Source of the DNA: Glycomyces albidus
GTDB taxonomy: Bacteria; Actinomycetota; Actinomycetes; Mycobacteriales; Micromonosporaceae
Direction of reading: 5' to 3'
DNA: 64,000 nucleotides
Assembly: GCF_009451885.1 (NCBI RefSeq)
Contig: NZ_WIAO01000004.1
Coordinates: 1 to 64,000, forward strand
Both the position numbers and the translations under genes were made by a program. Position 1 is the stretch's first letter; each line of letters opens with the position of its first letter. The notes under the pieces were generated by a model. It had not been told where the DNA came from, made no database searches, and was given only the letters and a program-made list of their open reading frames with translations. Positions 3,346-64,000 of the stretch are shown here, piece by piece.

Positions 3346-4499
3346 CCTACCAGCCGACCTACGGCGGTGCCCCACAGCCGGGCGGGTACCAGTGCGCGTG
3401 CGGGGCGTTCCCGCAGGCACAGTTCTGCGAGCAGTGCGGGACCCCCAACCCGGCGTGGCAGCAAGGCCAGCCTCCGCAGTCCCCTGCCGCGTTCGGACAG
3501 GGCTACCCGTCGAACGACCCGTACGGGCAGCCCGACCCGTACGGACAGCAGCCGCAGCAGCCCGGGTACGGGCAGGACCCGTACGGGCAACCGCAGCAGC
3601 AGGACCCTTATGGTCAGCCGCAGCAGGGCTACGGCCAGGACCCGTACGGGCAGCAGCAGCCCGGCGGGTACGGCCAGCAGGACCCGTACGGACAGCCGCA
3701 GCAGCAGGGCTACGGGCAGGACCCTTATGGTCAGCCGCAGCAGGGCTACGGGCAGGACCCGTACGGCCAACCGCAGCCGCAGGACCCGTATGGACAGCCG
3801 CAGCAGCCCGGGTACGGCCAGGACCCGTACGGGCAGCCGTCGCAGCCGCAGGACCCGTACGGCCAGCCGCAGCAGGACCCGTACGGGCAGCAGCCCGGCG
3901 GGTACGGGCAGGACCCGTACGCGCAGCAGTCGTACGCGCCGACCTCGGCTCCGCCCGGACCGCCTCCGGGGGTCCCGGCCGCGCCGTTCGGCGCCCCGAC
4001 CTCCGCGCCGCCCTCGACGGGCACCGGCGGGTTCTCGATGCCGGACGCGCAGCCGAGCGACCTCGCGTCGAACTACGCGCCTCCCGGCCAGGCGGCCACC
4101 CGCTGGGGTGTCGCCGTGACCGCGGACCAGGGCTACTTCAACAAGGTCGCGGCCTCGGACGGGGCCTCGCAGCTCCAGTACCCGTCGTTCGCGAAGCCGC
4201 GCCGCTTCCCGCTCGACAAGAGCGACCTGACGATCGGCCGCTACAGCGCCAAGCGGGGCATCACCCCGGACATCGACCTGTCGGGCGACGTCGCGGACCC
4301 GGGCGTGAGCGCGCAGCACGCGCGGCTGTACGCCAAGCCGGACGGCTCGTGGACGATCATGGACGTCGGCTCCTCGAACGGCACGTTCCTCAACGGCTCG
4401 GACGAGCCGCTGGCGCCGAACGTGGAGTTCCCGGTCGGGGACGGCACCTACATCAACATCGGCGCGTGGACGCGCCTGACGATCCACTACGAGGGTTAA
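3342..4499 (+). CDS. FHA-domain protein with zinc ribbon and PYGQ repeats
   Basis: A 385-residue protein starting with TTG at 3342, overlapping the phosphatase stop; a strong GGAGG at about 3328-3332 supports this start. Residues about 14-40 hold a zinc ribbon (CACG ... CEQCG). Residues about 48-200 are a low-complexity run of Gln-Asp-Pro-Tyr-Gly-Gln units, and a Pro/Ala linker follows. The last 100 residues are an FHA phosphothreonine-binding domain with the expected GR, VSAQHA and SSNGTFLNG motifs. In the PknG pathway of other actinobacteria an FHA protein (GarA/OdhI) is the kinase substrate, but those are short proteins; here the FHA domain sits on a long disordered arm. Likely a scaffold or substrate for the upstream kinase and phosphatase (inference). 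Confidence 0.92.
3517..3930 (+). repeat. In-frame tandem repeat encoding Gln-Asp-Pro-Tyr-Gly-Gln units
   Basis: Imperfect repeats built on the core CAGGACCCGTACGGGCAG, with variants such as GACCCTTATGGTCAG, run through the middle of the FHA gene. They encode alternating PYGQ, QQ and PGYGQ units, roughly a dozen or more copies. The synonymous differences between copies suggest selection on the peptide rather than very recent slippage, although some neighbouring copies are nearly identical. Such Tyr/Gln/Gly-rich tracts are disordered. Confidence 0.85.
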
Positions 4500-4505
4500 A
4501 GCGCA

Positions 4506-4541
4506 GCGAAAGGGCCGGGTCTCGCGACCCGGCCCTTTCGC
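4506..4541. terminator. Bidirectional terminator hairpin
   Basis: A perfect 16-bp stem (GCGAAAGGGCCGGGTC pairing with 4526-4541) closes on a 4-base TCGC loop. It lies between the end of the FHA gene and the end of the convergent hydrolase gene, and A- and T-rich stem ends suit both directions. Confidence 0.85.
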
Positions 4542-4551
4542 GTCGTCCGGT

Positions 4552-5457
4552 TCAGTTCCGCAGGAACGCGGCGACCCGGCTGCTGACGGCCGGGCTGACG
4601 AGGATCTTCCGGTGGCCCATGCCCTCGGTGGCCATGAGCTCGGCGTTCGGCCAGGCGGCGGCGAGCGCCTCGCCGTGGCGGAACGGGTTGGGGCGGTCGC
4701 GGCGGTCGTGGACGATGAGCGCGGGCGATTCGATCTCGAGGCCCCGCAGGGAGAAGTCGTCGAGCTTGACGCCGGCCTTGGCCTCGCCGAGGGGCGCCAG
4801 GCGGTCCATGATGCGCGGGCCCACGGGCACGATCGCGCCGATCGTGTCCCGGAAGCCCTCCTTGCCGCCGATGAACGGCGCGAGCATCGCCAGGCGGACG
4901 CCTTTGAGCTCCACGTCGTTCATGAGCAGGCCGTGGACGGCGCTGAGGCAGCCCATGGAGTGGCCGACGACCGCGTACGGGGCGCCGAACTTGCCGTAGA
5001 CGACGCTCATGGCCTCGACGAGGTGGACGCCGTTGGCGTGCCGGTCGCCCCACGGGCCGGGCCCTGAGTTGCCGTGGCTGGGGGCGTCGAAGGCGACCAC
5101 GCGGAAGCCGGAGGCGACGAGGTTCGCGGCGATGAACGTGAAGTCGCCGGTGGACCCGCCCCAGCCGTGGACGAGGTAGACGAGGGGGCGGTCGCCGGGG
5201 GTGTCGGGGGCCCAGTCGTACCCCCAGAGGGTGGTGCCGAGGCAGTCGAGTTCGAAGACGGTCGAGCCGGCGGGGGCCTCGCCGCGCAGGCGCTTGTCGG
5301 GGCCGGCGGGGAGCCGGAACCACATCTCGGACAGGAACTTCGCGGCAGGGCCGGGGGCGATGTGCTCGGCGGCGGTGAAGGCGGAGCGGAGATACCAAGG
5401 AGCACGAACGGTCGTGCTTTTCTTTTTCGAGGCGGTGCTCGGGGTGGTGGACGCCAT
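4552..5457 (-). CDS. Alpha/beta hydrolase
   Basis: A 301-residue alpha/beta hydrolase. LVYLVHGWGGSTGDF gives the oxyanion-hole HGWG, VVGHSMGCLSA is the nucleophile elbow GHSMG with the catalytic serine, and the C-terminal EGMGHRKI supplies the histidine; DRRDRPNPF probably precedes the acidic residue. No secretion signal; the N-terminal 35 residues are Thr/Ser/Lys-rich. The ATG at 5457 was chosen because it lies 20 bases after the stop of the TetR gene; an upstream in-frame ATG at 5520 would overlap that gene by 43 bases. The substrate cannot be told from the sequence. Probably co-transcribed with and controlled by the neighbouring TetR regulator. Confidence 0.85.
   Translation of the reverse strand: MASTTPSTASKKKSTTVRAPWYLRSAFTAAEHIAPGPAAKFLSEMWFRLPAGPDKRLRGEAPAGSTVFELDCLGTTLWGYDWAPDTPGDRPLVYLVHGWGGSTGDFTFIAANLVASGFRVVAFDAPSHGNSGPGPWGDRHANGVHLVEAMSVVYGKFGAPYAVVGHSMGCLSAVHGLLMNDVELKGVRLAMLAPFIGGKEGFRDTIGAIVPVGPRIMDRLAPLGEAKAGVKLDDFSLRGLEIESPALIVHDRRDRPNPFRHGEALAAAWPNAELMATEGMGHRKILVSPAVSSRVAAFLRN
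5401..5418. promoter_or_regulatory. Palindrome inside the hydrolase gene, possible second TetR site
   Basis: AGCACGAACGGTCGTGCT is a perfect 7-bp inverted repeat (AGCACGA/TCGTGCT) around a 4-base centre, within codons about 14-20 of the hydrolase. Its half-sites match the palindrome in front of the tetR gene at 6071, but the spacing is four bases wider. It may be a downstream operator, or coincidence in GC-rich coding DNA. Confidence 0.4.
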
Positions 5458-52146: not shown

Positions 52147-54051
52147 CTATTCGAGGCGGACCTTGAAGAACCGGGACTGCATGAGCGCCCTGAACGCCGC
52201 CAGCGCGGCCTCGTCGTGGTGGACCTCGGAGTTGCGGCCCTTCTTGTGGTCGGCGGGCGTCTCGAAGTAGACGATGGCCTTCAGGCGCGGGTAGTGCGCC
52301 ATCTGGTGGCGTGCGGCCTCGAAGACCGAGGCCTGGTGGTCGGGGTACTTGTCCTGGTGGAAGACGCCCCATTCGGCGAGCATCATCGGCTTGTCCGGGT
52401 GCTCCTTGGCGATCCAGTGGTAGAACCCGGGCCAGGCGGTGCCGCTCTTGGTCTGGTCGACGATCTCGCCGAAGTCGGAGCGGCCGTCGTCGTGGAGGGA
52501 CTGGCCGTAGCCGGAGAGGCCGATCCAGTCGACGACGTCCTCGCCGGGGTAGAGCTGGTCGTGCCAGTCCTGTTCGACCCATTTGAGGTAGCCCATGTAG
52601 TTCATGACCGACACGAGGTTGTCGACGCCGTTGGCGCGCAGGCGCTCGATGACGTACCGGAACATGTCGGCGTAGTCGGCGGCCTCCATGCCCGAGCCGT
52701 CCCGCTGGACCACGTCGTTCTCGGGTTCGTGGTGGACGGTGAAGAAGAACGGCTTGTCGAAGTTCGCGGTGATGTGGGCGGCGAGCCGGTCGAGGAAGTC
52801 GTCGGTGCCGGGGTCGCCGGCGGCGATCTCGGCCCAGGTGGCCTGGTACGGCTTCCAGTTGAGGAAGAGGGTGCGCGGCCGCTCGGGGTCCTGGGTGAGC
52901 GCGATCTGCGCGTCGGTCGGGAACAGCTTGCCGGTGCCGCGCTCGTAGGCGTGGTAGATCTGCTGCGTGTGCTGGACGCGCTCTTCGAAGACGAGGAGCT
53001 CGTCCTCTTTGACGCGGTTCGTGTGCGCGGCCGGGGCGACGCCGACGAGGGCGCCGCAGGTCGGGATGAGCTTGTCGCCGGTGGTGCAGTCGCTCGCCTG
53101 CTCTTCGGAGCGGCCGTACTCCGCGAGCGGAGCGGGCGGCGGACCGGCGGCCGGGCCGGTCGGCGGACCCGTCGGCGGCGGGGTCGGTTCGGCGGCGGGG
53201 GCGCCTGGGACCGCGGACGCGGTCGGGCTCGGCGAGTCGGTCGGTCCGGTCTGACCGGCGAGCGGGTCGGTCGGCGGCGGGCTGGACGGGAGCGGCGAGT
53301 CCGTCGGGGCCGGCGAGCCGGAGGGCGCGTCCGTGGGCGCCCCTGTGGGCGCCGGCGGCAGGTCCCCGGGCGCGGTCGGCGGGAGCGGGCCGGTCGGCTC
53401 GCCCGGTTCGGTGACCGTGCGCAGGGCCGGGCCCTGCCGGTACGCGATGCCCGCGAGTTCGAGGTAGGCCTTGCGGTCGGGGCTGGTGACGGCGAAGCCG
53501 TAGCGGCCGGGGGCGCTGATCGCGCCGGTCACGTCGAAGACGATCTCGGTCGTCTCGGCGTCGACCTCGACGGTGTCCCAGACGGTGCCGTAGGGCGGCG
53601 CGGTGGCGGCGGTGAGGGTGCACAGGCAGCTCACCGGGTGGACGGAGGCGACCTCGACGGTCATGCCTTCGGCGTCGGGCGGGACCGCGACCGGCAGCCG
53701 CAGTTCGGCGGTGCGGTCGGGGCCCGCCGTGGCCTCGTCGACGGCGAACTGGAGGTGGGTGACCGCGATGCCGAGGTCGTCGGAGTAGCCGACGGGCAGC
53801 ACCGCGGGCGACTCGGGCGCGTGGTCCGCGACGGCGGTCGCCGTGAAGGAGGCCGCGAGCGGCCGGTGGTCGACCACGCCCTCGCCGTCCTCCCATGCGT
53901 TCGTGACGTCGTCGCCGAACCGGTCGTCGCCGGAGCCGACGCCGTAGCCGATGACGAAGCCCGCGAGGACCAGCGGGAGGACCGCGAGGACGGTCACGAT
54001 CCCGCGGCCGGTCGCGAGCGGGTGCCGCTGCTTCGCGTCGGTGCCGCCCAT
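52147..54051 (-). CDS. Membrane-anchored GH26-type glycoside hydrolase
   Basis: A 634-residue exported protein. Residues about 15-40 are an uncleaved-looking membrane anchor (GIVTVLAVLPLVLAGFVIGY). Residues about 60-215 form a beta-rich domain resembling DNRLRE-type binding domains. A 110-residue Pro/Thr/Ser linker follows. The last 300 residues are a GH26-like barrel: FFFTVHHEPEND has the acid/base glutamate (HEPE) and KPMMLAEWGVFH the nucleophile. GH26 includes beta-mannanases; in polysaccharide clusters of actinobacteria similar enzymes sit beside Wzz/Wzy genes and may trim or release the product. It is divergent from that operon. ATG at 54051 follows AAGGTGG; 54072 is an alternative. Confidence 0.85.
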   Translation of the reverse strand: MGGTDAKQRHPLATGRGIVTVLAVLPLVLAGFVIGYGVGSGDDRFGDDVTNAWEDGEGVVDHRPLAASFTATAVADHAPESPAVLPVGYSDDLGIAVTHLQFAVDEATAGPDRTAELRLPVAVPPDAEGMTVEVASVHPVSCLCTLTAATAPPYGTVWDTVEVDAETTEIVFDVTGAISAPGRYGFAVTSPDRKAYLELAGIAYRQGPALRTVTEPGEPTGPLPPTAPGDLPPAPTGAPTDAPSGSPAPTDSPLPSSPPPTDPLAGQTGPTDSPSPTASAVPGAPAAEPTPPPTGPPTGPAAGPPPAPLAEYGRSEEQASDCTTGDKLIPTCGALVGVAPAAHTNRVKEDELLVFEERVQHTQQIYHAYERGTGKLFPTDAQIALTQDPERPRTLFLNWKPYQATWAEIAAGDPGTDDFLDRLAAHITANFDKPFFFTVHHEPENDVVQRDGSGMEAADYADMFRYVIERLRANGVDNLVSVMNYMGYLKWVEQDWHDQLYPGEDVVDWIGLSGYGQSLHDDGRSDFGEIVDQTKSGTAWPGFYHWIAKEHPDKPMMLAEWGVFHQDKYPDHQASVFEAARHQMAHYPRLKAIVYFETPADHKKGRNSEVHHDEAALAAFRALMQSRFFKVRLE

Positions 54052-54243
54052 CGTCCACCTTCTTCCGTCCAATGTGATCTGGACTCAATATTGCGAATCA
54101 CCATATTAGCGAACAAATGGGTTTTTACTCGCCTCCTCTCGCAAACTCAACCCTCGCCCCGCGCGGCGCGTCGCCGCCCGTCACCTGAGGGACGCGTCGC
54201 TCGTTACTCCTTCGAGATCCCTAGAACCAGAAAGGGCTTCGCG

Positions 54244-55935
54244 TTGAGGACCCCTGCAGCCCGCACGCTCGCCGACTACGGCGTCATCGTCCGCCGCTCC
54301 TGGTGGCTCGTCGCCGGCACCGCCGCCGCGGCGCTCGCCGCCGGCGTGGCCTACACCGAGCTGAGCCCGGAGGTGTACGAGTCGACCGCCTCGGTCCTCG
54401 TGCTGCCGACCGCGGGCGACACCGAGGTCCAAGGGGCCCGCACCGCCGGACAGGTCAATCTGGACACCGAGGCGCAGCTCGTCAAGTCCACCGAGGTGGC
54501 CGAGGCCGCCGCCGAGGCGCTCGGGACCGATCCGGCCGCCGACCTCGTCTCGCAGGTGTCGGTCACCGTGCCGCCCAACACGGCGGTGCTGGAGATCAGC
54601 TTCCGCGCCGGCGACCCGCGGGCGGCGCAGGAGGGGACGGTCGCGTTCAGCGAGGCGTACCTCGCGCACCGGCTCGCCGGGGCCACCGCGTCCCTCGAAC
54701 GCGAGACCACCGCCGCCGCAGTGGAACTCGAGGCCGTCAACGCCGAGATCGCCGCCACCGAGGAGCGGCTCGACGGCGCCGACTCCGGCCGGGGCGGGCT
54801 CGAGTCGGACCTGGCGGACCTCCGCGGCCGCGCCGCCGAACTCGAAGCCTCGATCGCGGGACTCCAGGCCCAGGCCGAGGCCGTCTCGCCCGGCCGGGTC
54901 ATCAACCAGGCGCCGCTGCCGCAGGCACCGATCAGCCCGAACGCCCTGTTCAACCTGGCCGCGGCCCTCGGCGCCGGACTCCCGCTCGGGCTCGTGCTCG
55001 CGTGGGCGAGGCACCGCCTGGCCCGCAAGGTCGCCTACCCGGCCGACCTGGTCGACCGGTGCGAGCTCGACGTGATCGCCTCCGTGCCGCCGGCCGTGAA
55101 GTTCCAGCGGCGCGAGGTCTTCGGCGCCTACAGCCCGGGCGGGCGCGTCTTCTCGCAGCTGCGCAACATCGTCGCCTCGCAGCTCACCCACGACCAGCGC
55201 GTCATCGTCGTCGCCGGGATCGCGCCCGGGCCGGCCGCGAGCGTCGTCGCCGCGAACCTCGCCACCGCGATGGCCCGCGCGGGCGACCGCGTGACCGCCG
55301 TGGCCGCGAACCCGAGCACCACCGTCGGGCTGCCGGAGCTGTTCGGCACCGACCCGGTCCCGGGGCTCGCGGACGCGTGGTCGGGCCGGGTCGACCTCGC
55401 CGAGACCGTCCAGGCCGCGCCGCGGCAGCCGAGCCTGTCGGTGATCGGCCCCGGCGCCGCGGCCCGGGCCGCCGGGCCCACCAGCGAGGCCGCCGCCGAG
55501 ACCTTCGCGAAGCTCGCCGAGGCCGGCCGGTTCGTCGTCGTCGACGCGCCGCCGCTGTCGTGCTCGGCCGACGCGCAGCTCCTCGCCGGGCACGCCGACG
55601 CCGTGATCCTCGCCGTCCAGTCGCAGCGCGACGCGATCGCCGAGACCGCGGCCGCCGCGGTCGCCATGCGCCAGATCGACACGCCGCTGCTCGGCGCGGT
55701 CCTGCTCCCGGCCGTGCTCGGCCCGATGAACAGCGTGCCGCTGCCGACCGCGCGGCGCGAGCCGGCCGCCCGCCCCGCGCCGACCGAGGACGAGACGCCC
55801 ACCGACTCGCTCGAACCGGTCGACGAGGGCGCCACCGAGGTGATCCCCGCCGTCCGCACCGCTTCGGGGGGCGCCGCCGCGAACCGTGCCGCTTCGAACG
55901 CCGGCGCCGCGCCGTCGGCGGCCGAACCGCGATGA
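54244..55935 (+). CDS. Wzz-like chain-length determinant fused to a degenerate tyrosine-kinase-type domain
   Basis: A 563-residue protein of the polysaccharide co-polymerase type. Residues about 8-38 and 225-250 hold two membrane segments around an extracellular Wzz domain with coiled coil (LERETTAAAVELEAVNAEIA) and a proline-rich second segment (PLPQAPISPNALFNLAAALG). The cytosolic C-terminal half looks like a CpsD/BY-kinase domain, but the Walker A expected as GEGKST reads GIAPGPAASVVAANL without the lysine, the A' motif reads VTAVAANPS, and only FVVVDAPPL keeps Walker B. There is no tyrosine-rich tail. TTG start at 54244 with AAAGGG 8 bases upstream. First gene of the polymer operon; ATGA overlap with the next. 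Confidence 0.83.
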   Translation: MRTPAARTLADYGVIVRRSWWLVAGTAAAALAAGVAYTELSPEVYESTASVLVLPTAGDTEVQGARTAGQVNLDTEAQLVKSTEVAEAAAEALGTDPAADLVSQVSVTVPPNTAVLEISFRAGDPRAAQEGTVAFSEAYLAHRLAGATASLERETTAAAVELEAVNAEIAATEERLDGADSGRGGLESDLADLRGRAAELEASIAGLQAQAEAVSPGRVINQAPLPQAPISPNALFNLAAALGAGLPLGLVLAWARHRLARKVAYPADLVDRCELDVIASVPPAVKFQRREVFGAYSPGGRVFSQLRNIVASQLTHDQRVIVVAGIAPGPAASVVAANLATAMARAGDRVTAVAANPSTTVGLPELFGTDPVPGLADAWSGRVDLAETVQAAPRQPSLSVIGPGAAARAAGPTSEAAAETFAKLAEAGRFVVVDAPPLSCSADAQLLAGHADAVILAVQSQRDAIAETAAAAVAMRQIDTPLLGAVLLPAVLGPMNSVPLPTARREPAARPAPTEDETPTDSLEPVDEGATEVIPAVRTASGGAAANRAASNAGAAPSAAEPR

Positions 55936-57317
55936 CACTGCTCGCGGCCGCCCGCTCGGCCGGCCGGCCGCGCCCCAGCGGCGAGCGCGGCGAAGGCGCG
56001 TCGCTGTTCTGGCTCCTGGCGGCCTACCCGCTGTGGTGGGCGCTCGGGCTCGGGGTCCTCGCGATCCCGTTCGTCGCCGCCGTCGCGGCCGTCAAGCTGG
56101 TGCGGCGCAGGTCGATCGCCGTCCCGCCCGCGTTCGGGTGGTGGCTGCTGTTCCTGCTCGCGGTGGTGCTCAGCCTCGCGAACCTCGGCGTGGACCCGCC
56201 CGGCGTGATCCCCGAGACGTTCGTGTCGAGCCTCGCGGGCGCGACCTACCGGTTCGGGTTCTACTGCTGCGTCACCCTGATCGCCCTGTGGGCGTACAAC
56301 CTCGTGCTCGAAGGGGCGCTCCGCCGCGAGCGGCTGATCCGGCTGCTCGCGTGGCTGTTCGCCGTCACCGTCGCCGGCGGGCTGCTCGGGACGTTCGCCG
56401 GCGGCTTCGAGTACACCTCCCCGGTCGAGGCGCTGCTGCCGAACGCGGTCGCGAAGGACGGGTTCGTGCAGTCGCTGGTGCACCCGGCGGCGGCGCAGAC
56501 GATGGACTTCCTCGGCTACGAGACGCCGCGCCCCGCCGCCCCGTGGGGCTACACCAACACGTGGGGCAACAACTTCGCGATCACCGCCGTCTGGTTCACG
56601 GTCGCGGCGTTCTGCATGCCGCTCAAGACGAAGTGGCGGGTCGCCGCGGTGGCGCTCCTGGCCGTCTCGCTCGTGCCCGCCGTCTACTCGATGAACCGCG
56701 GCCTGTGGCTCGGCCTCGCCGCGATCGCCGTCTTCACCGCCCTCCGGCTGCTCGTCTCCGGCCGGCCCGGCGGCATGCTCGCGCTCGGCGGCGCCGGGTG
56801 CGCCGCGGTGCTCCTCGTCGTCCTCACCCCGCTCGGCACGGTCGTGCAGGCGCGGATGGACAACGGCCACTCCGACGAAGGCCGGGCGTTCTCCTCCGAG
56901 CGGGCCGTCGAGCTCGTCGTCGAGCACTCGCCGGTGACCGGGTTCGGGTCCACCAGGAAGACCCTCGGATCCGGCGAGTCGATCGCCGTCGGACCGACCC
57001 CCGAGTGCCCCCGCTGCGGCGGGCGCACGCTCGGCGGGAACGGTCAGCTCTGGCAGGTCCTGTTCGCGCACGGCATCGCCGGGACGGTCACGTACCTCGG
57101 GTTCGCGCTCGCGGTCCTGTGGCGATTCAGGTCCGACCACTCCCCCGTCGGCATCGCCGGGAGCGCGGTCGTCGGGTTCTCGCTGCTGACGATGTTCTAC
57201 TACAACGCCCTCGTCACGCCCCTGCTGCTCACCCTGCTCAGCTACGTCCTCCTCGCCGCCAACAGCACACCAGCGCCCGGGGCCCTCGCCGCGGGTCCAG
57301 AGACGGAGAACCGATGA
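55932..57317 (+). CDS. O-antigen polymerase/ligase-type membrane protein (Wzy-like)
   Basis: A 461-residue membrane protein with about ten to eleven hydrophobic helices. The typical large outside loop near residues 315-375 contains HSDEGRAFSSERAVELVVEH and PVTGFGSTRK, the (S/R)R...E...PxxGxG pattern of the Wzy_C/O-antigen ligase family, and is followed by NGQLWQVLFAHGIAGT. The loop also has a CPRCGG motif. It would join repeat units outside the membrane or ligate the chain. Overlaps both neighbours by 4 bases, so it is tightly coupled to the Wzz-like and phosphotransferase genes. Confidence 0.85.
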   Translation: MTLLAAARSAGRPRPSGERGEGASLFWLLAAYPLWWALGLGVLAIPFVAAVAAVKLVRRRSIAVPPAFGWWLLFLLAVVLSLANLGVDPPGVIPETFVSSLAGATYRFGFYCCVTLIALWAYNLVLEGALRRERLIRLLAWLFAVTVAGGLLGTFAGGFEYTSPVEALLPNAVAKDGFVQSLVHPAAAQTMDFLGYETPRPAAPWGYTNTWGNNFAITAVWFTVAAFCMPLKTKWRVAAVALLAVSLVPAVYSMNRGLWLGLAAIAVFTALRLLVSGRPGGMLALGGAGCAAVLLVVLTPLGTVVQARMDNGHSDEGRAFSSERAVELVVEHSPVTGFGSTRKTLGSGESIAVGPTPECPRCGGRTLGGNGQLWQVLFAHGIAGTVTYLGFALAVLWRFRSDHSPVGIAGSAVVGFSLLTMFYYNALVTPLLLTLLSYVLLAANSTPAPGALAAGPETENR

Positions 57318-58561
57318 GTCGAGCCTTGAACACCGCCGACGACCTGCGCAGGCGGGCGACCTACCTCGCGGAGGTGGTCGACCAGCTCTACCCCGGCGCG
57401 GGCGGGCCGGACGGCGCACCCGAGCGGCCCTACATCGTCGTGCCCGGGCGGCGCAGGCCCCGCGTGCTCATCCCCGCCGCCGACCGGAAGGTCGCCGCCG
57501 CGGCCCTGTCGCGGTACGCGCGCCCGGCCGCCCGCGGCGCCCGCCTCAAGCGCGACGCCGCGGTCCTGGCCCTGCGCCTGGGCCTCGACCGGATCCTGCT
57601 CCCGCACCGCGTCAAGGTCGGCGGCGCCGAGGGCATCGACGACCACCTGGCCGCGGTCCTCGGCCACGAGGTCCACCTGAGCATCCACATCGGACCGGCG
57701 CGGGCGAACCGCAAACCGGTGCTGCAGATCCTCGACGGGGACGCGAAGACGGTCGCGTTCGCGAAGCTCGGCGTCAACCCGCTCACCCGGGAGCTCGTCG
57801 ACGCCGAGACCGCCGCTACCAAGCGCCTCAGCGAGTGCTGCGACCTGAAGCTCCTGCGCGTTCCCGATCTCCTGCACGCGGGGAACTGGAACGGCCACAA
57901 CCTCATGGTGACCTCGGCGCTCCCGGCCTGGGAGGCGCCCGCCGACCTCGGGCCCGGCCGCCGCACCGCCGCCATGCGCGAACTCGCCGACGCGTGCGGC
58001 ACCTCCCGGTTCCCGCTCGGCGAATCCGACTACGCCGCCCGGCTGCGCACGCGCCTCAAGGCGCTCGCCGTCCGCGGCGAACCCGACGCCGACACGCTCC
58101 AGACCGCCGGGGAGGCGCTCCTGGACCGGTACGGGACCGCGACGATGACCTTCGGCGCCTGGCACGGCGACTGGTCCCCGTGGAACACCCGCGAGACCCG
58201 CGACCGCATCTACCTGTGGGACCTCGAGCGGTTCGAGACCGGCGTCCCCTACGGCTTCGACGCCGTCCACTACCGGCTCCAGGACGACATCGTGACCAAC
58301 GGGTCCGACCCGACCACCGCCGTGCTCGCGCTCGTCGCCGACGCGCCCACGGTGCTGGCGCCCATGGGCGTCGCCCCCGGCGAGGCCGAGCCCACCACGC
58401 TTCTCTACCTCGTCGACCTCGCCGCCCGCTACATGGGCGACCAGGCCGAACGCGCCGGCGCGGCCCTGGGGGCGCTCGGCCGCTGGCTCCTGCCGACCCT
58501 GCTGCGCCACATCGCCCGCCAGCGGACCGCGCAGGCCGGCTCCCCCGACGGACCATGTTGA
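57314..58561 (+). CDS. Phosphotransferase-fold protein of the polysaccharide cluster
   Basis: A 415-residue soluble protein. The C-terminal half contains FGAWHGDWSPWNT (HGDxxxxN, catalytic aspartate and metal-binding asparagine) and IYLWDLERFETGVPYGFD (the DxE of APH-type kinases). The N-terminal 170 residues are Arg-rich and unique, with HEVHLSIHIGPARANRKPVL and KTVAFAKLGVNPLTRELV resembling a nucleotide-binding lobe. It may phosphorylate a sugar or lipid-linked intermediate; no known member gives a function. Starts by ATGA overlap with the polymerase gene. Confidence 0.72.
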   Translation: MSRALNTADDLRRRATYLAEVVDQLYPGAGGPDGAPERPYIVVPGRRRPRVLIPAADRKVAAAALSRYARPAARGARLKRDAAVLALRLGLDRILLPHRVKVGGAEGIDDHLAAVLGHEVHLSIHIGPARANRKPVLQILDGDAKTVAFAKLGVNPLTRELVDAETAATKRLSECCDLKLLRVPDLLHAGNWNGHNLMVTSALPAWEAPADLGPGRRTAAMRELADACGTSRFPLGESDYAARLRTRLKALAVRGEPDADTLQTAGEALLDRYGTATMTFGAWHGDWSPWNTRETRDRIYLWDLERFETGVPYGFDAVHYRLQDDIVTNGSDPTTAVLALVADAPTVLAPMGVAPGEAEPTTLLYLVDLAARYMGDQAERAGAALGALGRWLLPTLLRHIARQRTAQAGSPDGPC

Positions 58562-58578
58562 GCTGCAAGGAACCACGA

Positions 58579-59466
58579 ATGACCCATCGGACCACACTGC
58601 GCGACCGCATCCCCACGCAGATCAAGGCCGTCGTCGGCCGCTCCTCGCGCACCTTCGGGCGCCTGACGGCCTCCTCGCGGATGCTGCCCGGCCTGCTCGT
58701 GTGCGGCGGCCAGCGCTGCGGCACCACGTCCCTGTACCGGGCCCTGGCCCAGCACCCGGCGATCCTGAAACCGGTGCTCCACAAGGGCGTCCACTATTTC
58801 GACACCGACTACCGGCGCGGCCCGGCCTGGTACCGCGGGCATTTCCCGACCCAGGCGACGGCCGCGCGCATCGCGGACCGCACCGGCCTCGCGCCGGTCG
58901 CGTTCGAGTCGAGCCCGTACTACCTGTACCACCCGCTGGCCGCGGAGCGCTTCGCACGCGACCTCCCGGGCGTCAAGGTGATCGTGCTCGTCCGCGACCC
59001 CGTCGAGCGGGCGTGGTCGCACCACGCCCACGAAGTGGCGCGCGGGTTCGAGCCGATCACCGACTTCGACGCGGCCGTGGAGGCCGAGGCGTCGCGCCTC
59101 GACGGCGTCGAGGAGCGGCTGCGCGCCGACCCGGCGCTGTACAGCTTCGACCACCAGCACCACGCGTACACCGCGCGCGGGCGGTACACCGACTACCTCG
59201 AGCCGCTCGCCCGCCACGTCGGGCGCGACCGGGTGCTGGTGCTCGACTCGGGCGAGTTCTTCAGCCGGCCCGAGGACGCGTTCGAGCGGGTCCTGCGGTT
59301 CCTGGGGCTGCCGTGGATCGGCGAGTTCACGTTCGCCCGCCACAACGCGCGCGGGCGGCCCTCGCCGATGTCCCCGGCGCTGCGGGAGCGGCTCACCGAG
59401 CACTACGAGCCCTATGACGAACGGCTCGCGGAATGGCTTGGGGGCGTGCCGAGTTGGCGGCGCTGA
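58579..59466 (+). CDS. Sulfotransferase 1 of the polysaccharide cluster
   Basis: A 295-residue sulfotransferase. LLVCGGQRCGTTSLYRALAQ is the 5'-phosphosulfate loop that binds PAPS, and VKVIVLVRDPVERAWSHHAH the 3'-phosphate loop with the conserved Arg and Ser. HKGVHYFDTDYRRGPAWYRG and FESSPYYLYHP are typical of the heparan-sulfate N-deacetylase/sulfotransferase-like group acting on sugars. No signal peptide. AAGGAA precedes the ATG at 58579, 17 bases after the previous stop. It probably sulfates the repeat unit before export (inference). Confidence 0.9.
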   Translation: MTHRTTLRDRIPTQIKAVVGRSSRTFGRLTASSRMLPGLLVCGGQRCGTTSLYRALAQHPAILKPVLHKGVHYFDTDYRRGPAWYRGHFPTQATAARIADRTGLAPVAFESSPYYLYHPLAAERFARDLPGVKVIVLVRDPVERAWSHHAHEVARGFEPITDFDAAVEAEASRLDGVEERLRADPALYSFDHQHHAYTARGRYTDYLEPLARHVGRDRVLVLDSGEFFSRPEDAFERVLRFLGLPWIGEFTFARHNARGRPSPMSPALRERLTEHYEPYDERLAEWLGGVPSWRR

Positions 59467-60911
59467 CCGCGCCGGTCGCCGAGGCCGGACGCGAGGAGCT
59501 GCGCGGCACCGCCCGCGGCGGCCTGGTGAACCTCGTCGGAGCCGCGGTCTCCGGCCTCGGCGGCCTGGCCGTCACGTGGCTCGCGGCCGTCGCCCTCACG
59601 CCCGCCGAAGCCGGCGCGTTCTTCGCGGCGACCTCGGTGTTCATGCTCGCGGGCGCGGTCGCGCGCCTCGGCACGCCCACCGGGCTCGTGTACTGGGTGG
59701 CGCGGCTGCACCGCAACGGCCGGGACGGCGCCATCGGGTCGGCCCTGCGGCTGGGCCTGTGGCCCGCGGCGATCGCGTCGTTCGCGGCGGCGGCCGCGCT
59801 GCTGGCGGCCGCGCCGATGTTCGCTCGCCCGGACCTGGTGCGGCTCCTCGCCGTGTTCATCCCCGCGTCGGTCGCGATGGAGGCGCTCCTGGCGGCCACG
59901 CGCGGCTACCGGCTCATGGGCCCTTCCGTGGTCATCGACAAGCTCGGGCGCACGCTCGCCCAGCTCGCCGGCCTCGCCGCGATCGCGTGGGCGGGAGCGG
60001 CGACGGCGCAGTGGATCACGTTCGCGTGGGTGCTGCCGTACTTCCCGGCGGCACTGGCCGCGGCCTGGTACCTGCTGCGGCGCCACCGCGCGGCCGCGGT
60101 CGACCGGGAGTTCCCCGACCGGGTCTCGGCGCGGGCGTTCTGGGGGTTCACGGCGCCGCGCGCGGTCGCGAGCGTCGCGCAGCTCGGGCTGCAGCGGCTC
60201 GACATCATCATGGTCGCCGCGCTCGCCGGCCTCGGCCCGGCCGCGGTCTACACCGTGGCGACCCGGTTCGTGATCGTCGGCCAGCTCGCCTCGGGCGCGG
60301 TGGGCCAGTCGGTGCAGCCGCGCGCGGCGGCGGCGATGGCCGCCGGCGAACCCGCGTCGGCGCGGTCGCTGTACCAGGAGTCGACGGCGTGGATCGTGGC
60401 CCTCACGTGGCCGGTGTACCTCGCGGTGGGCCTCCTCGCCGACTGGTACCTGCGGCTGTTCGGCTCCGGGTACGCGACGGACGAGGCGCGCTTGGTGGTG
60501 TGGGTCCTGGTGCCCGCGATGATGTGCGCCTCGGCGTGCGGGGTCGTGGACTCGATGCTGTCGATGGCGGGGAAGACCTCGTGGCAGCTCCTCGACGTCT
60601 CGATCGCGCTCGCGGTCAACGTGGGGCTGAACCTGGCGCTGATCCCTCCTCTGGGTGTCGTCGGCGCGGCGATCGCTTGGTCCGCGGCCGTTCTGGTCAA
60701 TAATTTGGTTCCACTCGCGCAGCTGTGGCGCACGTTCGGACTGCACCCCTTCGGGGCGCTGACGAGACGGGCCCTGCTCGCCGCCGGCCTCGCATTCGGG
60801 GCCCTGCCCCTGGCGGCCGTCCCGTTCGGGCCGCTGTGGACGCTCGGCGCGCTCGCCGCGGCCGGCGCCGCGTGGGCGGTGGCGCTCCTGCGCTACCGCA
60901 CCCGGATCTGA
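59433..60911 (+). CDS. Polysaccharide flippase (Wzx/MATE-like)
   Basis: A 492-residue integral membrane protein with 12 to 14 predicted helices, for example LVNLVGAAVSGLGGLAVTWL at the start and LLADWYLRLFGSGYATDEAR with following IPPLGVVGAAIAWSAAVLVN near the end, the pattern of the polysaccharide-export/MVF superfamily. It would move lipid-linked repeat units across the membrane. Its ATG at 59433 overlaps the sulfotransferase gene by 34 bases; a later start is possible because the first 25 residues are not conserved in type. Confidence 0.85.
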   Translation: MAWGRAELAALTAPVAEAGREELRGTARGGLVNLVGAAVSGLGGLAVTWLAAVALTPAEAGAFFAATSVFMLAGAVARLGTPTGLVYWVARLHRNGRDGAIGSALRLGLWPAAIASFAAAAALLAAAPMFARPDLVRLLAVFIPASVAMEALLAATRGYRLMGPSVVIDKLGRTLAQLAGLAAIAWAGAATAQWITFAWVLPYFPAALAAAWYLLRRHRAAAVDREFPDRVSARAFWGFTAPRAVASVAQLGLQRLDIIMVAALAGLGPAAVYTVATRFVIVGQLASGAVGQSVQPRAAAAMAAGEPASARSLYQESTAWIVALTWPVYLAVGLLADWYLRLFGSGYATDEARLVVWVLVPAMMCASACGVVDSMLSMAGKTSWQLLDVSIALAVNVGLNLALIPPLGVVGAAIAWSAAVLVNNLVPLAQLWRTFGLHPFGALTRRALLAAGLAFGALPLAAVPFGPLWTLGALAAAGAAWAVALLRYRTRI

Positions 60912-60924
60912 GAGGGAGAACGCC

Positions 60925-61656
60925 GTGGCAGCCAACTACACCGAGGTCTTCCGCGACCCGACCGCCGTCGAGAAGTACGCGGAGCGCACGTACGCGCCCG
61001 GCAGCTTCTCGTCGATCGTGTCCAGCCGCCAGGCCGGGTGGCTGCGCGGGTTCGTACCGCACGCGTACAGGATGCCGCCGGTGCACCACGACTTCGCATG
61101 CGGCACCGGCAGGGTCGCGCGGATGCTCGCGGGCCTGGTGGCGGTGTCGCACGGCTACGACACATCCGAGGCGATGCTCCGGAAGGCGCGGGAACTGGGC
61201 ACGCCCGGATACGCGCACCTGGTCACGCCGGGCTACGCGATGCCCGTCCCGGACGAGACGCGCCCGCGGCTGGTGACCGCGTTCCGGTTCGCGCTCAACG
61301 TGGACCTGCACCTGCGCGACCAGATGATGGACTTCGCGTCGGCGGCGCTGCCGGACGCCGATGCGGGGCTGCTGCTGGTGGAGAACCACGGGAACGCGTC
61401 GTCGGTGCGGCACCTGCGCAAGACCTTCGGGCGCCTCGACTCGGCCTCCTGGTTCCAGGAGCTCTCGCACGAGGAGATGCGGGAGCTGTTCGACCGGCAC
61501 GGCTTCGACCTGGTCGGCATGCAGGGCTTCACGCTGTTCACGCAGGGCTGCTACCGGCGGCCGTGGCTGTGGGCGGCGAAGACCGCCGACTCGGCGCTGT
61601 GCTCGCCGATGTCCAGATGGGCCACCGACGTCGTCTACGTCGCCCGCAGGCGCTAG
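60925..61656 (+). CDS. SAM-dependent methyltransferase
   Basis: A 243-residue class I methyltransferase. The SAM-binding motif is VHHDFACGTGRVARML, with GYDTSEAMLRKARELG as the second strand; AFRFALNVDLHLRDQMMDFA and SHEEMRELFDRHGFDL follow the usual order. Starts with GTG at 60925 after GAGAGGGAG. In this cluster it may O-methylate a sugar of the polymer, but that is inferred only from its place 13 bases after the flippase gene. Confidence 0.87.
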   Translation: MAANYTEVFRDPTAVEKYAERTYAPGSFSSIVSSRQAGWLRGFVPHAYRMPPVHHDFACGTGRVARMLAGLVAVSHGYDTSEAMLRKARELGTPGYAHLVTPGYAMPVPDETRPRLVTAFRFALNVDLHLRDQMMDFASAALPDADAGLLLVENHGNASSVRHLRKTFGRLDSASWFQELSHEEMRELFDRHGFDLVGMQGFTLFTQGCYRRPWLWAAKTADSALCSPMSRWATDVVYVARRR

Positions 61657-61693
61657 GCCAGGGTCGGGGTCGGGGCGGCCCCCCGCGGCCCGT

Positions 61694-62515
61694 TCAGCGC
61701 CGGTTCCGGCGCTCCCGCGTAGCTTCGGCGAGCAGCCGCAGCGCCTCGGGCAGGTCGTCGCGCAGGTACCGGCGCACGAGCCGGCGCGGCTCCGAGCACA
61801 TCCGGAACACCCATTCGGTGCCGGTGCGCTGCATCCACTTCGGGGCGCGGCGGCGGTAGCCGGCGATGAAGTCGATGCTCGCCCCGCAGCCGAGGAACCA
61901 CGCGCGCGGCGCGACCGCTCGCAGCCGCGCCGCGACGTGCTCCTGCTTGGGGAAGCCGAGGCCGACGTAGACCAGGTCGGGGACGGCGGCCCGGACGCGG
62001 TCCTCCAGCGCGCTCCATTCCGTGTCGTCGCGGTCGAAGCCGATCGGCGGGCACCACGCGCCGACGACTTTCAGCCCCGGGTGGCGGGCCTCGAGGACCG
62101 CGGCGGCGCGCTCGGTCGGGCGCGCGGCGCCGTCAGGGGTGCCGCCGAGGAGCGCGATGCGCAGGCCGCGTTCGGACGCGGCCGCCGAGAGGCTCCAGAC
62201 CAGGTCGGAGCCGGCGACGCGCTCGGGCAGCGGCGAGCCGGCGAGCCGGGACGCCCACACCAGCGGCGCGCCGTCGGCCGTCACCAGGCCGGCGGCGTCG
62301 ATGACGGCGCGCAGGTCGCGGCTGCGGCGCGCGGCCGCGACGATGTCGACGTTCGGGGTCACGATCTGCCCGCCGCGGCCGGCCTCGATCGCCTCGAGCA
62401 CGCGCGCGACCGCTTCGGACTCGGTGACCGGGTCGATGCCGATGCCGCCCAAGCGGATCCGCGTTGAATGTGTGCCGCGCGCGCCGTCGGCGCGCACAGG
62501 GCCCAAGCGCTCCAT
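61694..62515 (-). CDS. WecG/TagA/CpsF-family glycosyltransferase
   Basis: A 273-residue GT26 enzyme. IVTPNVDIVAAARRSRDLR, TADGAPLVWASRLAGSPLPE followed by RVAGSDL, ALLGGTPDGAA and VYVGLGFPKQEH are the family signatures, including the Thr and Asp that catalyse sugar transfer. Members add N-acetylmannosamine or another sugar to a lipid-linked acceptor in wall polymer or capsule synthesis. It is the only minus-strand gene within the right part of the cluster; 108 bases separate it from the divergent second sulfotransferase. Confidence 0.92.
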   Translation of the reverse strand: MERLGPVRADGARGTHSTRIRLGGIGIDPVTESEAVARVLEAIEAGRGGQIVTPNVDIVAAARRSRDLRAVIDAAGLVTADGAPLVWASRLAGSPLPERVAGSDLVWSLSAAASERGLRIALLGGTPDGAARPTERAAAVLEARHPGLKVVGAWCPPIGFDRDDTEWSALEDRVRAAVPDLVYVGLGFPKQEHVAARLRAVAPRAWFLGCGASIDFIAGYRRRAPKWMQRTGTEWVFRMCSEPRRLVRRYLRDDLPEALRLLAEATRERRNRR

Positions 62516-62623
62516 GACATCAGACGCTAGAGCCCGGCGGGCGGTTTTCCGGGTTTTTTCGCGGCAGGGCGTGTCCCCGACCCCACCTCGGATCGTTATA
62601 GGAGTCGACAGGGGAACACGACG

Positions 62624-63688
62624 GTGAGCGAGGGTTCAGTGAGCTGGAGAACGGCCGAGCAGTCCGAGCAGTCCGAGAACCGCGTCAAAGTGGTCTTCAT
62701 CGGAGGCCTGGGCCGATCCGGCACGACGCTCCTGGAGCGGCTGCTGGGGCAGCTTCCCGGGGTCGTCCCGCTCGGCGAGATCACCCACCTGTGGGAACGC
62801 GACCTGGTCGGCAACGAGATGTGCGCGTGCGGGGCGACGTTCTCGCACTGCGAGTTCTGGCAGCGCATCGGCGGGCGGGCCTTCGGGTCCTGGGAGAACG
62901 TCGACGTCGAGCGGCTCAGCGCCTTGAAGGCCACTGTGGACCGCACCCGGCACATTCCGGCGCTCGCGGCGAAGAAGCTCGCTCCGGCGCAGCACCAGCT
63001 CGTCACCGAGTACGCCGAGTACTTCGAGAAGCTCTACGAGGCCGCCGCCAGGGACACCCGGGCGCAGGTCGTGGTCGACTCCTCGAAGCACGCGTCGCTC
63101 GCGTACTGCCTGCGCTGGTCCCCCAAGATCGACCTGCGCGTGATGCACGTGGTGCGCGACTCGCGGGGCGTCGCCTACTCGTGGACCAAGCAGGTGCGCC
63201 GCCCCGAGTCCCCCACCGGCGACCAGATGACCCGCTACTCCCCCGCGAAGGCCGCGATGCTGTGGAACGCGCAGAACGCCGCGTTCAGCCTCCTGGCGCG
63301 GCGCGGCGTCCCGGTGCGGCGGGTCCGGTACGAGCGGATCATCGAGCGCCCGCGCCGGGTCATCGCGTCGCTGGCCCGCTTCTGCGGGCTCGACCTCGTC
63401 GAGTCCGACCTGAACTTCATCGGCGACGGCTGGGCCGACCTCGGCCCCAGCCACTCCGCGGCCGGCAACCCGATGCGGTTCACCGTGGGGCGCATCCCGA
63501 TCCGGCCCGACGAGGCGTGGACCGAGGACCTCCCGGACGGCACCCGCCGGATGGTCTCGACGCTGACGCGACCGCTGCTGGGCCGGTACGGGTACCTTGC
63601 TGAAGACGAGGAACCCTTGGAGGACTCCGCGCGCGAGCGCCTCGTCGACGCCCGCGGAGACGTGATCATGGGGAGTGAGCGCCCGTGA
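62624..63688 (+). CDS. Sulfotransferase 2 of the polysaccharide cluster
   Basis: A 354-residue sulfotransferase with GTG start. VVFIGGLGRSGTTLLERLLG is the PAPS 5'-loop and DLRVMHVVRDSRGVAYSWTK the 3'-loop; VVDSSKHASLAYCLRW and RVRYERIIERPRRVIASLARF are also typical. It contains CACGATFSHCEFW near residues 67-78, a cysteine cluster of unknown purpose. It is more like bacterial sugar/lipid sulfotransferases than sulfotransferase 1 and clearly not a recent duplicate. Its stop overlaps the GTG of the next glycosyltransferase (GTGA). Confidence 0.9.
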   Translation: MSEGSVSWRTAEQSEQSENRVKVVFIGGLGRSGTTLLERLLGQLPGVVPLGEITHLWERDLVGNEMCACGATFSHCEFWQRIGGRAFGSWENVDVERLSALKATVDRTRHIPALAAKKLAPAQHQLVTEYAEYFEKLYEAAARDTRAQVVVDSSKHASLAYCLRWSPKIDLRVMHVVRDSRGVAYSWTKQVRRPESPTGDQMTRYSPAKAAMLWNAQNAAFSLLARRGVPVRRVRYERIIERPRRVIASLARFCGLDLVESDLNFIGDGWADLGPSHSAAGNPMRFTVGRIPIRPDEAWTEDLPDGTRRMVSTLTRPLLGRYGYLAEDEEPLEDSARERLVDARGDVIMGSERP

Positions 63689-64000
63689 CCGACTGGCCCT
63701 CCGTCGGGGTCGTGATCCCGACGCACGACCGGCCCCAGCAGATGCGCGCCGCTCTGAGGTCGGTGCTGACGCAGTTCTACCCCGGCGAACTCGAGGTCGT
63801 CGTGGTCTTCGACCGCGCCAAGCCGGCCGAGGGCCTCGAAGCCGAGCTCAACGGCGGCTCGGGCGAGGCCGCGAAGCGCCCGGTGCGGGTCGTCAGGAAC
63901 GAGCGCACCCCGGGCCTCGCCGGGGCCCGCAACACCGGCATCACCGCCTTGGAGACCGACCTGGTCGCGTTCCTCGACGACGACGACGAATGGCTCCCCG
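63685..64000 (+). CDS. Family 2 glycosyltransferase (3' partial)
   Basis: GTG start overlapping the previous stop; 105 residues are visible before the window ends. SVGVVIPTHDRPQQMRAALR, LEVVVVFDRA, TPGLAGARNTGI and VAFLDDDDEWLP are the GT-A motifs, the last being the metal- and nucleotide-sugar-binding DxD region. It transfers a sugar from a nucleotide donor, probably in building the repeat unit of the cluster's polymer. The rest of the gene lies outside. Confidence 0.93.
   Translation, partial: MTDWPSVGVVIPTHDRPQQMRAALRSVLTQFYPGELEVVVVFDRAKPAEGLEAELNGGSGEAAKRPVRVVRNERTPGLAGARNTGITALETDLVAFLDDDDEWLP

Follow-up and report, generated by a model that had tools for sequence, protein, structure and literature searches.

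What is made by the gene cluster at the right end of the first 64,000 bases of contig NZ_WIAO01000004.1 of Glycomyces albidus (bases 1-64000, hereafter the window, of a 268,608-bp contig in a 5.76-Mb genome), and is it a new kind of locus? An earlier note had recognized in it Wzz-, Wzy- and Wzx-like proteins, a WecG-type and a family 2 (GT2) glycosyltransferase, a methyltransferase, a kinase-fold protein (KIN), two unrelated sulfotransferases of the type using 3'-phosphoadenosine 5'-phosphosulfate (PAPS) and a glycoside hydrolase of family 26 (GH26), and had proposed a sulfated exopolymer that might be new. All ten genes are indeed present, with their starts corrected relative to that note, and the cluster spans 52147-64614 of the contig, its right border lying, as had been stated, outside the window, by 614 bp. 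We put at about 0.8 the probability that its product is a cell-surface polysaccharide with sulfated repeat units, assembled by a Wzx/Wzy pathway. The basis is which genes are present, the folds predicted for them, and how far they are conserved, linked and found together; from this we infer the chemistry, the presence of sulfate, the sugar makeup and the function in Glycomyces.

A Wzx/Wzy pathway requires a flippase, a polymerase and a chain-length protein, and the cluster encodes all three. The flippase is a Wzx of the MatE/MOP type with about 11 hydrophobic segments (59433..60911, + strand; PF01554, E 2.1e-7), while the Wzy-type polymerase (55932..57317, +) has about 10 such segments and does not itself match Wzy_C (PF04932), which is matched by 21 of its 24 aligned homologues (best E 2.7e-8). 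The chain-length protein (54196..55935, +; PF02706, E 6.5e-9) is a Wzz/polysaccharide copolymerase fused to a domain resembling bacterial tyrosine kinases (BY-kinases). Tyrosine autokinase models match this domain below their cut-off, its Walker A region reads GIAPGPAAS and lacks the Walker A lysine, and none of the 49 homologues checked (49/49) has a GxxxxGK[ST] pattern past residue 300; for these reasons the fused kinase domain is conserved but probably dead. Two glycosyltransferases, of the WecG/TagA/CpsF type (61694..62515, -; PF03808, E 1.5e-53) and the GT2 type (63685..64000 and on to contig position 64614, +; PF00535, E 3.6e-22 for the whole protein), are also encoded. KIN (57314..58561, +), apparently an enzyme of the aminoglycoside phosphotransferase (APH)/fructosamine-kinase/choline-kinase fold, is probably a small-molecule or sugar kinase; the 50 fold matches listed comprise fructosamine-3-kinase, APH, macrolide, choline, steroid and similar kinases, a listing that is also compatible with a protein-kinase fold.

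The cluster also encodes two sulfotransferases, ST1 (58579..59466, +; PF13469, E 4.6e-13) and ST2 (62624..63688, +), which belong to different subfamilies and both carry a PF00685/PF13469 domain, the P-loop and the 3'-phosphate motif expected of PAPS-dependent enzymes. When the ST1 profile was compared with the PDB, it matched 3rnl (3.9e-32), the heparan sulfate 3-O-sulfotransferase 3-OST-5 (8.3e-28) and the heparan sulfate N-deacetylase/N-sulfotransferase NDST (5.8e-23), so that its best characterised matches are heparan sulfate 3-OST/NDST enzymes (E 8.3e-28 to 2.5e-21); ST1 retains a PAPS P-loop (GGQRCGTTSL) and an RDPVERAxS motif. Sulfotransferase genes elsewhere in the genome lie on contigs C23 and C18, where no Wzx or Wzy was seen by eye in the stretches inspected; on C18 (L045:8579-9289 and 4211-5167), a ManC-like gene, also recognized by eye, is about 3.4 kb away from a fourth PF00685 match of the genome. 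Among Geodermatophilaceae loci, an extra sulfotransferase directly follows Wzx in Modestobacter (L178:12576-13511; PF13469, E 8.1e-26), and a similar extra gene was seen by eye in Geodermatophilus (L156).

The cluster is kept together well beyond Glycomyces. A genome scan with ST1 returned at least 562 relatives, of which the best 80 were taken as named loci, a sample thereby skewed to close relatives, and a further 60 regional loci, from 59 genomes of the host's family (G016 twice), were collected around the kinase gene; loci shorter than about 20 kb (12/80 named, 5/60 regional) were excluded from the counts, leaving 68 named and 55 regional loci. The order Wzz-Wzy-KIN-ST1-Wzx was found in 67/68 named loci, representing several actinomycete families, and in 50/55 regional loci, and this five-gene core together with WecG, ST2 and GT2 in 59/68 and 43/55, respectively. 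Hosts among the best 80 include Glycomyces, Stackebrandtia, Actinoplanes and its kin, Catellatospora, Asanoa and Dactylosporangium as well as Streptosporangium, Nonomuraea, Sphaerisporangium, Planobispora, Microbispora, Actinomadura, Geodermatophilus and Modestobacter. Within the host's family (121 genomes sampled), the kinase gene was found in 96 genomes at E<=1e-10 and in 85 at E<=1e-50; the latter are called kinase-positive here, and 11 genomes with weak matches (E ~1e-10 to ~1e-30, best 1.1e-33) were scored as negative. Across the phylum the kinase is rare, being matched at E<=1e-30 in 11 of 296 sampled genomes, our own included. Ten other genomes matched, and ten regions were fetched from these, with G133 left out. 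In seven of the regions, which come from six genomes with three other family labels, KIN, ST1, Wzx and Wzy are all present but arranged in other orders; an eighth is a contig of just 3.4 kb that encodes KIN, Wzy and ST2, and the last two are without the core. Because gene order is conserved and the core genes stay together even when rearranged, we reject a chance neighborhood. Some of the shuffled cores from distant families (L201-L207) have two ST2-like, two ST1-like or two kinase genes, and four genomes of genera g34, g9 and g4 (L099-L102) display a diverged order, Wzy-Wzx-ST1-KIN-GT2, at about 30-50% identity and without a closely matching initiating transferase.

As for novelty, comparison with known polymer loci points to wps-1 (AMIS_7280-7380) of Actinoplanes missouriensis, described in June 2026 in a paper that predicts a sulfated polysaccharide and awaits its verification (PMC13390465). 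The two loci share GT2 (WpsA), ST2 (WpsB), WecG (WpsC), the methyltransferase (WpsF), Wzx (WpsG), the heparan-type ST1 (WpsH), KIN (WpsI), Wzy (WpsJ) and Wzz (WpsK), an equation drawn through gene-by-gene families and gene order in other Actinoplanes-type loci rather than through the AMIS sequences themselves. What the Glycomyces window lacks is the GH26 gene (WpsE) and the DUF4262 gene (WpsD) within the operon; the gap between its methyltransferase and WecG genes is 37 bp and contains neither, and the only GH26 is the divergent one. Two Actinoplanes-type loci that were read through have the wps-1 set with an in-operon GH26 (L128, Amorphoplanes; L164, Actinoplanes), the latter also with DUF4262, but an in-operon GH26 is found in only 33/68 named loci, and we regard both genes as accessory rather than defining. 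The ordered core plus WecG, ST2 and GT2, by which we define a wps-1-type locus, is present in the window, and as judged by families and order we are dealing with wps-1 in its Glycomyces version rather than with a locus of a new kind. The suggestion that it may be new thus falls, as a matching set has already been knocked out gene by gene in A. missouriensis (PMC13390465). In that work, removing wpsA, C, G, H, I, J or K one at a time resulted in squashed sporangia, deletion of wpsE, with a mild effect, and of wpsF led to abnormalities other than squashing, and the wpsD mutant was normal, all other wps-1 genes being needed for normal sporangia; WpsI was labelled a protein kinase. The authors count two glycosyltransferases for the repeat (PMC13390465), and these together with an initiating phosphoglycosyl transferase (PGT) suggest at least three sugars per repeat. 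In the cited part of that paper, the words "Glycomyces", "Streptosporangium", "conserved", "homolog", "ortholog" and "distribut" do not occur.

The initiating transferase, which the earlier note had advised looking for by extending the contig rightward, is encoded there. At 29-34 kb to the right of the cluster lie genes for CysN (93734-95011), CysD (95011-95913), a CysQ-like phosphatase (95983-96729) and a PF02397 PGT (96909-98396), the last being 32 kb from the cluster, one of two PF02397 matches in the genome and a TIGR03025 match at 416 bits (cut-off 295.6). We have assigned this protein as the initiating PGT of the cluster, based on synteny in relatives and on co-occurrence. In 10/68 named loci CysN-CysD-CysQ-PGT comes right after the cluster, and a Modestobacter locus has only the PGT in this place (11/68 for the PGT); in this Modestobacter locus the cluster, PGT, pth, rplY and prs are contiguous (the last three by eye), matching the pth, rplY, prs and glmU-like genes seen by eye downstream of the PGT in Glycomyces. 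An orthologue-grade PGT (best E <=8.4e-144; next best 1.8e-124) is present in 79/85 kinase-positive vs. 6/36 other family genomes (Fisher P 1e-16, relatedness not corrected) and, when a genus is scored positive if any one of its genomes is, in 29/30 kinase-positive vs. 4/14 other genera (Fisher P 4e-6, likewise not corrected). Proximity to CysQ was examined for orthologue-grade PGTs only, and they lie within 7 kb of it in 75/85 vs. 2/36 genomes.

The sulfate donor pathway is encoded in the genome as well, and both it and the initiating transferase lie outside the cluster. It comprises CysD (PF01507), CysN (TIGR02034, above cut-off), a kinase for adenosine 5'-phosphosulfate (APS; TIGR00455, above cut-off) and the CysQ-like protein (below its cut-off). 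The APS kinase domain, at 212.7-214.2 kb of the contig (L042:9694-11238) and 154 kb from the kinase gene, is joined to a sulfurylase-like half that lacks QxRNP, a motif that we take to be expected of a sulfurylase, and CysDN should therefore be the sulfurylase. The CysH of Glycomyces has CC...CxxC cysteines, presumably the signature of an APS reductase, which suggests that PAPS is dispensable for sulfate assimilation. The idea of a second CysD devoted to sulfation was rejected, as the PF01507 proteins of the genome are a single CysD and a single CysH, in a search that did not extend to a stand-alone Sat. In 60/85 kinase-positive genomes an APS kinase gene lies within 20 kb of the kinase gene, and in both L128 and L164 it directly precedes Wzz, which is the position of AMIS_7390, a sulfurylase/APS kinase family gene beside wps-1 whose loss was severe and which was "unexpectedly" needed (PMC13390465). 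This phenotype could be explained if AMIS_7390, like its counterpart in relatives, is an APS kinase that would supply PAPS to the two sulfotransferases.

From these genes, we surmise the following pathway. The PGT would load the first sugar phosphate on undecaprenyl phosphate and WecG and GT2 would add further sugars; in the cytoplasm, ST1 and ST2 would then transfer sulfate from PAPS, the S-adenosylmethionine (SAM) methyltransferase (60925..61656, +; PF13649, E 3.5e-6; found in 44/68 named loci) may cap or decorate the unit, and KIN may phosphorylate a sugar or precursor. Wzx would flip the unit and Wzy polymerize it, with Wzz, its kinase domain apparently dead, setting chain length, while CysD/CysN and the APS kinase would make PAPS and CysQ would remove the by-product, 3'-phosphoadenosine 5'-phosphate (PAP). 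Outside the membrane, the anchored GH26 may cut beta-mannosidic or similar links. This GH26 (52147..54072, -; PF02156 at cut-off, 20.2 bits) has a single N-terminal hydrophobic anchor near residue 18 and the motifs HHEPEN and AEWG, which we take to carry the two catalytic glutamates; the acid/base motif is found in 11/14 sampled homologue rows, and of the three rows that lack it, at least two represent GH26 genes located on the opposite strand after Wzx. A divergent GH26 lies upstream of Wzz in 60/68 named and 37/55 regional loci. That it trims or releases the polymer is plausible only; in A. missouriensis, two glycoside hydrolases cut the sporangium matrix, one encoded beside another polymer cluster (PMC12691653), and these may serve as a precedent for a cluster-linked hydrolase.

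Several points weigh against a sulfated polymer: 1) the glutamate preceding the IHFF-type motif of 3-OST-5, presumably the catalytic base, aligns with glycine 70 of ST1, so that the acceptor chemistry of ST1 may differ; 2) the structure of ST2 is closer to protein-tyrosine and polyketide sulfotransferases than to 3-OSTs; 3) the PGT, CysND/CysQ and APS kinase all lie outside the window cluster, an orthologue-grade PGT is missing from 6/85 kinase-positive genomes and the co-occurrence tests are uncorrected for relatedness; 4) APS kinase is present in 120/121 family genomes, cluster-less ones included, and CysQ in 118/121, meaning that both serve other needs too and that the idea of an APS kinase confined to cluster carriers had to be rejected; 5) in A. 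missouriensis, deletion of wpsB, the ST2 counterpart, left sporangium shape normal and reduced spore release about tenfold, and AMIS_7390 was not co-induced with wps-1 (PMC13390465); and 6) in the open-licence PMC literature we found no demonstration of sulfate on the product of a wps-1-type locus. The sulfated Wzx/Wzy polymer proposed in the earlier note is well supported by the genes present, by their conservation and by their linkage to a PGT and to PAPS synthesis, with sulfate in the polymer being a prediction.

As a variant of the sulfated polymer reading, the repeat unit may be sulfated but end up in a glycopolymer of the teichuronic or teichoic type attached to the wall, instead of in an exopolysaccharide that is released. 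We consider this possible, if doubtful. Against wall linkage speak the effect of the wps-1 genes on the sporangium and the argument that their product belongs to the sporangium matrix (PMC13390465); for it speak the WecG/TagA-type transferase in the cluster, the mycelial and Gram-positive nature of the hosts, among which the non-sporulating Stackebrandtia nassauensis apparently ranks, and an anchored GH26 that could act near the membrane.

Many of the best-80 hosts fall in sporangium-forming genera, such as Actinoplanes and Streptosporangium, which would fit a locus for a sporangium- or spore-specific matrix polymer with a purely developmental role. The hosts also include Glycomyces, Nonomuraea, Actinomadura and Modestobacter, which are not known to form sporangia. 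On the side of such a role, wps-1 is induced early in sporangium formation, is needed for it and is treated by its authors as a sporangium locus, with a matrix component argued (PMC13390465). Against it stands S. nassauensis, recorded as non-sporulating (PMC3035245), the apparent genome of which (G046) carries most of the cluster, as GH26-Wzz-Wzy-KIN-ST1-Wzx-methyltransferase in one region (L058), with an ST2 of 66% identity 0.56 Mb away; WecG and GT2 are absent from that region and were not sought elsewhere in the genome. If this identification holds, gene presence alone argues that the locus is not for sporangia only, and we deem a purely developmental role unlikely. A further reading, in which the substrate of the sulfotransferases and kinase is a lipid or small molecule and the Wzx/Wzy system is only their neighbor, is very improbable, since the same genes accompany Wzx and Wzy across families and rearrangements, ST1 is of the polysaccharide-sulfotransferase type, and deletion of wpsH, the ST1 counterpart, squashes sporangia as do the Wzx and Wzy deletions (PMC13390465).

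The preferred reading, a sulfated Wzx/Wzy polymer, has parallels in other bacteria. The xss locus for synechan in Synechocystis PCC 6803 likewise combines Wzx, Wzy and a PCP with two sulfotransferases of distinct subfamilies, and sulfate has been measured in its product; as compared by gene descriptions rather than sequences, it differs in being cyanobacterial and plasmid-borne and in having eight glycosyltransferases, and its gene list, in the part cited, names no kinase-fold protein or GH26 (PMC8205485). The capsule loci of Vibrio KMM 8419 and Cobetia marina KMM 1449, whose sulfated structures were solved by nuclear magnetic resonance (NMR), also have PAPS-synthesis and sulfotransferase genes with the polymer genes, but differ in their ABC-transporter export and Gram-negative marine hosts (PMC11641403, PMC11766843). 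These capsules contradict the statement that bacterial sulfated polysaccharides are exclusively cyanobacterial (PMC13390465).

To the right of the cluster, a DUF4956-VTC pair (contig 64909-66266; L005:2909-4266) is followed by a two-component system and then the ATP synthase operon, the translations of these being read by eye. DUF4956/VTC were rejected as cluster members, as they occur in 6/68 long named loci, all from Glycomyces.

The present analysis adds how widely the locus occurs, which PGT and PAPS genes are assigned to it, a likely explanation of the AMIS_7390 mutant and an argument that its role is not confined to sporangia. More tentatively, and with slightly less than even confidence, we propose that an ancient machinery dedicated to a surface polysaccharide that is sulfated, methylated and possibly also phosphorylated is common to the mycelial Actinomycetota, consisting of a conserved Wzx/Wzy core, a heparan-sulfotransferase-like enzyme, a sugar kinase and its own PGT and PAPS-making/PAP-clearing operon, with a general role at the hyphal surface of which the sporangium matrix would be one later use. 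With the PAPS and PGT genes in hand, the hypothesis put forward for Actinoplanes in 2026 becomes testable, and ST1, if the preferred reading is right, would be a bacterial relative of the heparan sulfotransferases that is possibly useful for making sulfated glycans. In that case, sulfated polysaccharides would be a common trait of many filamentous soil actinomycetes rather than a rarity.

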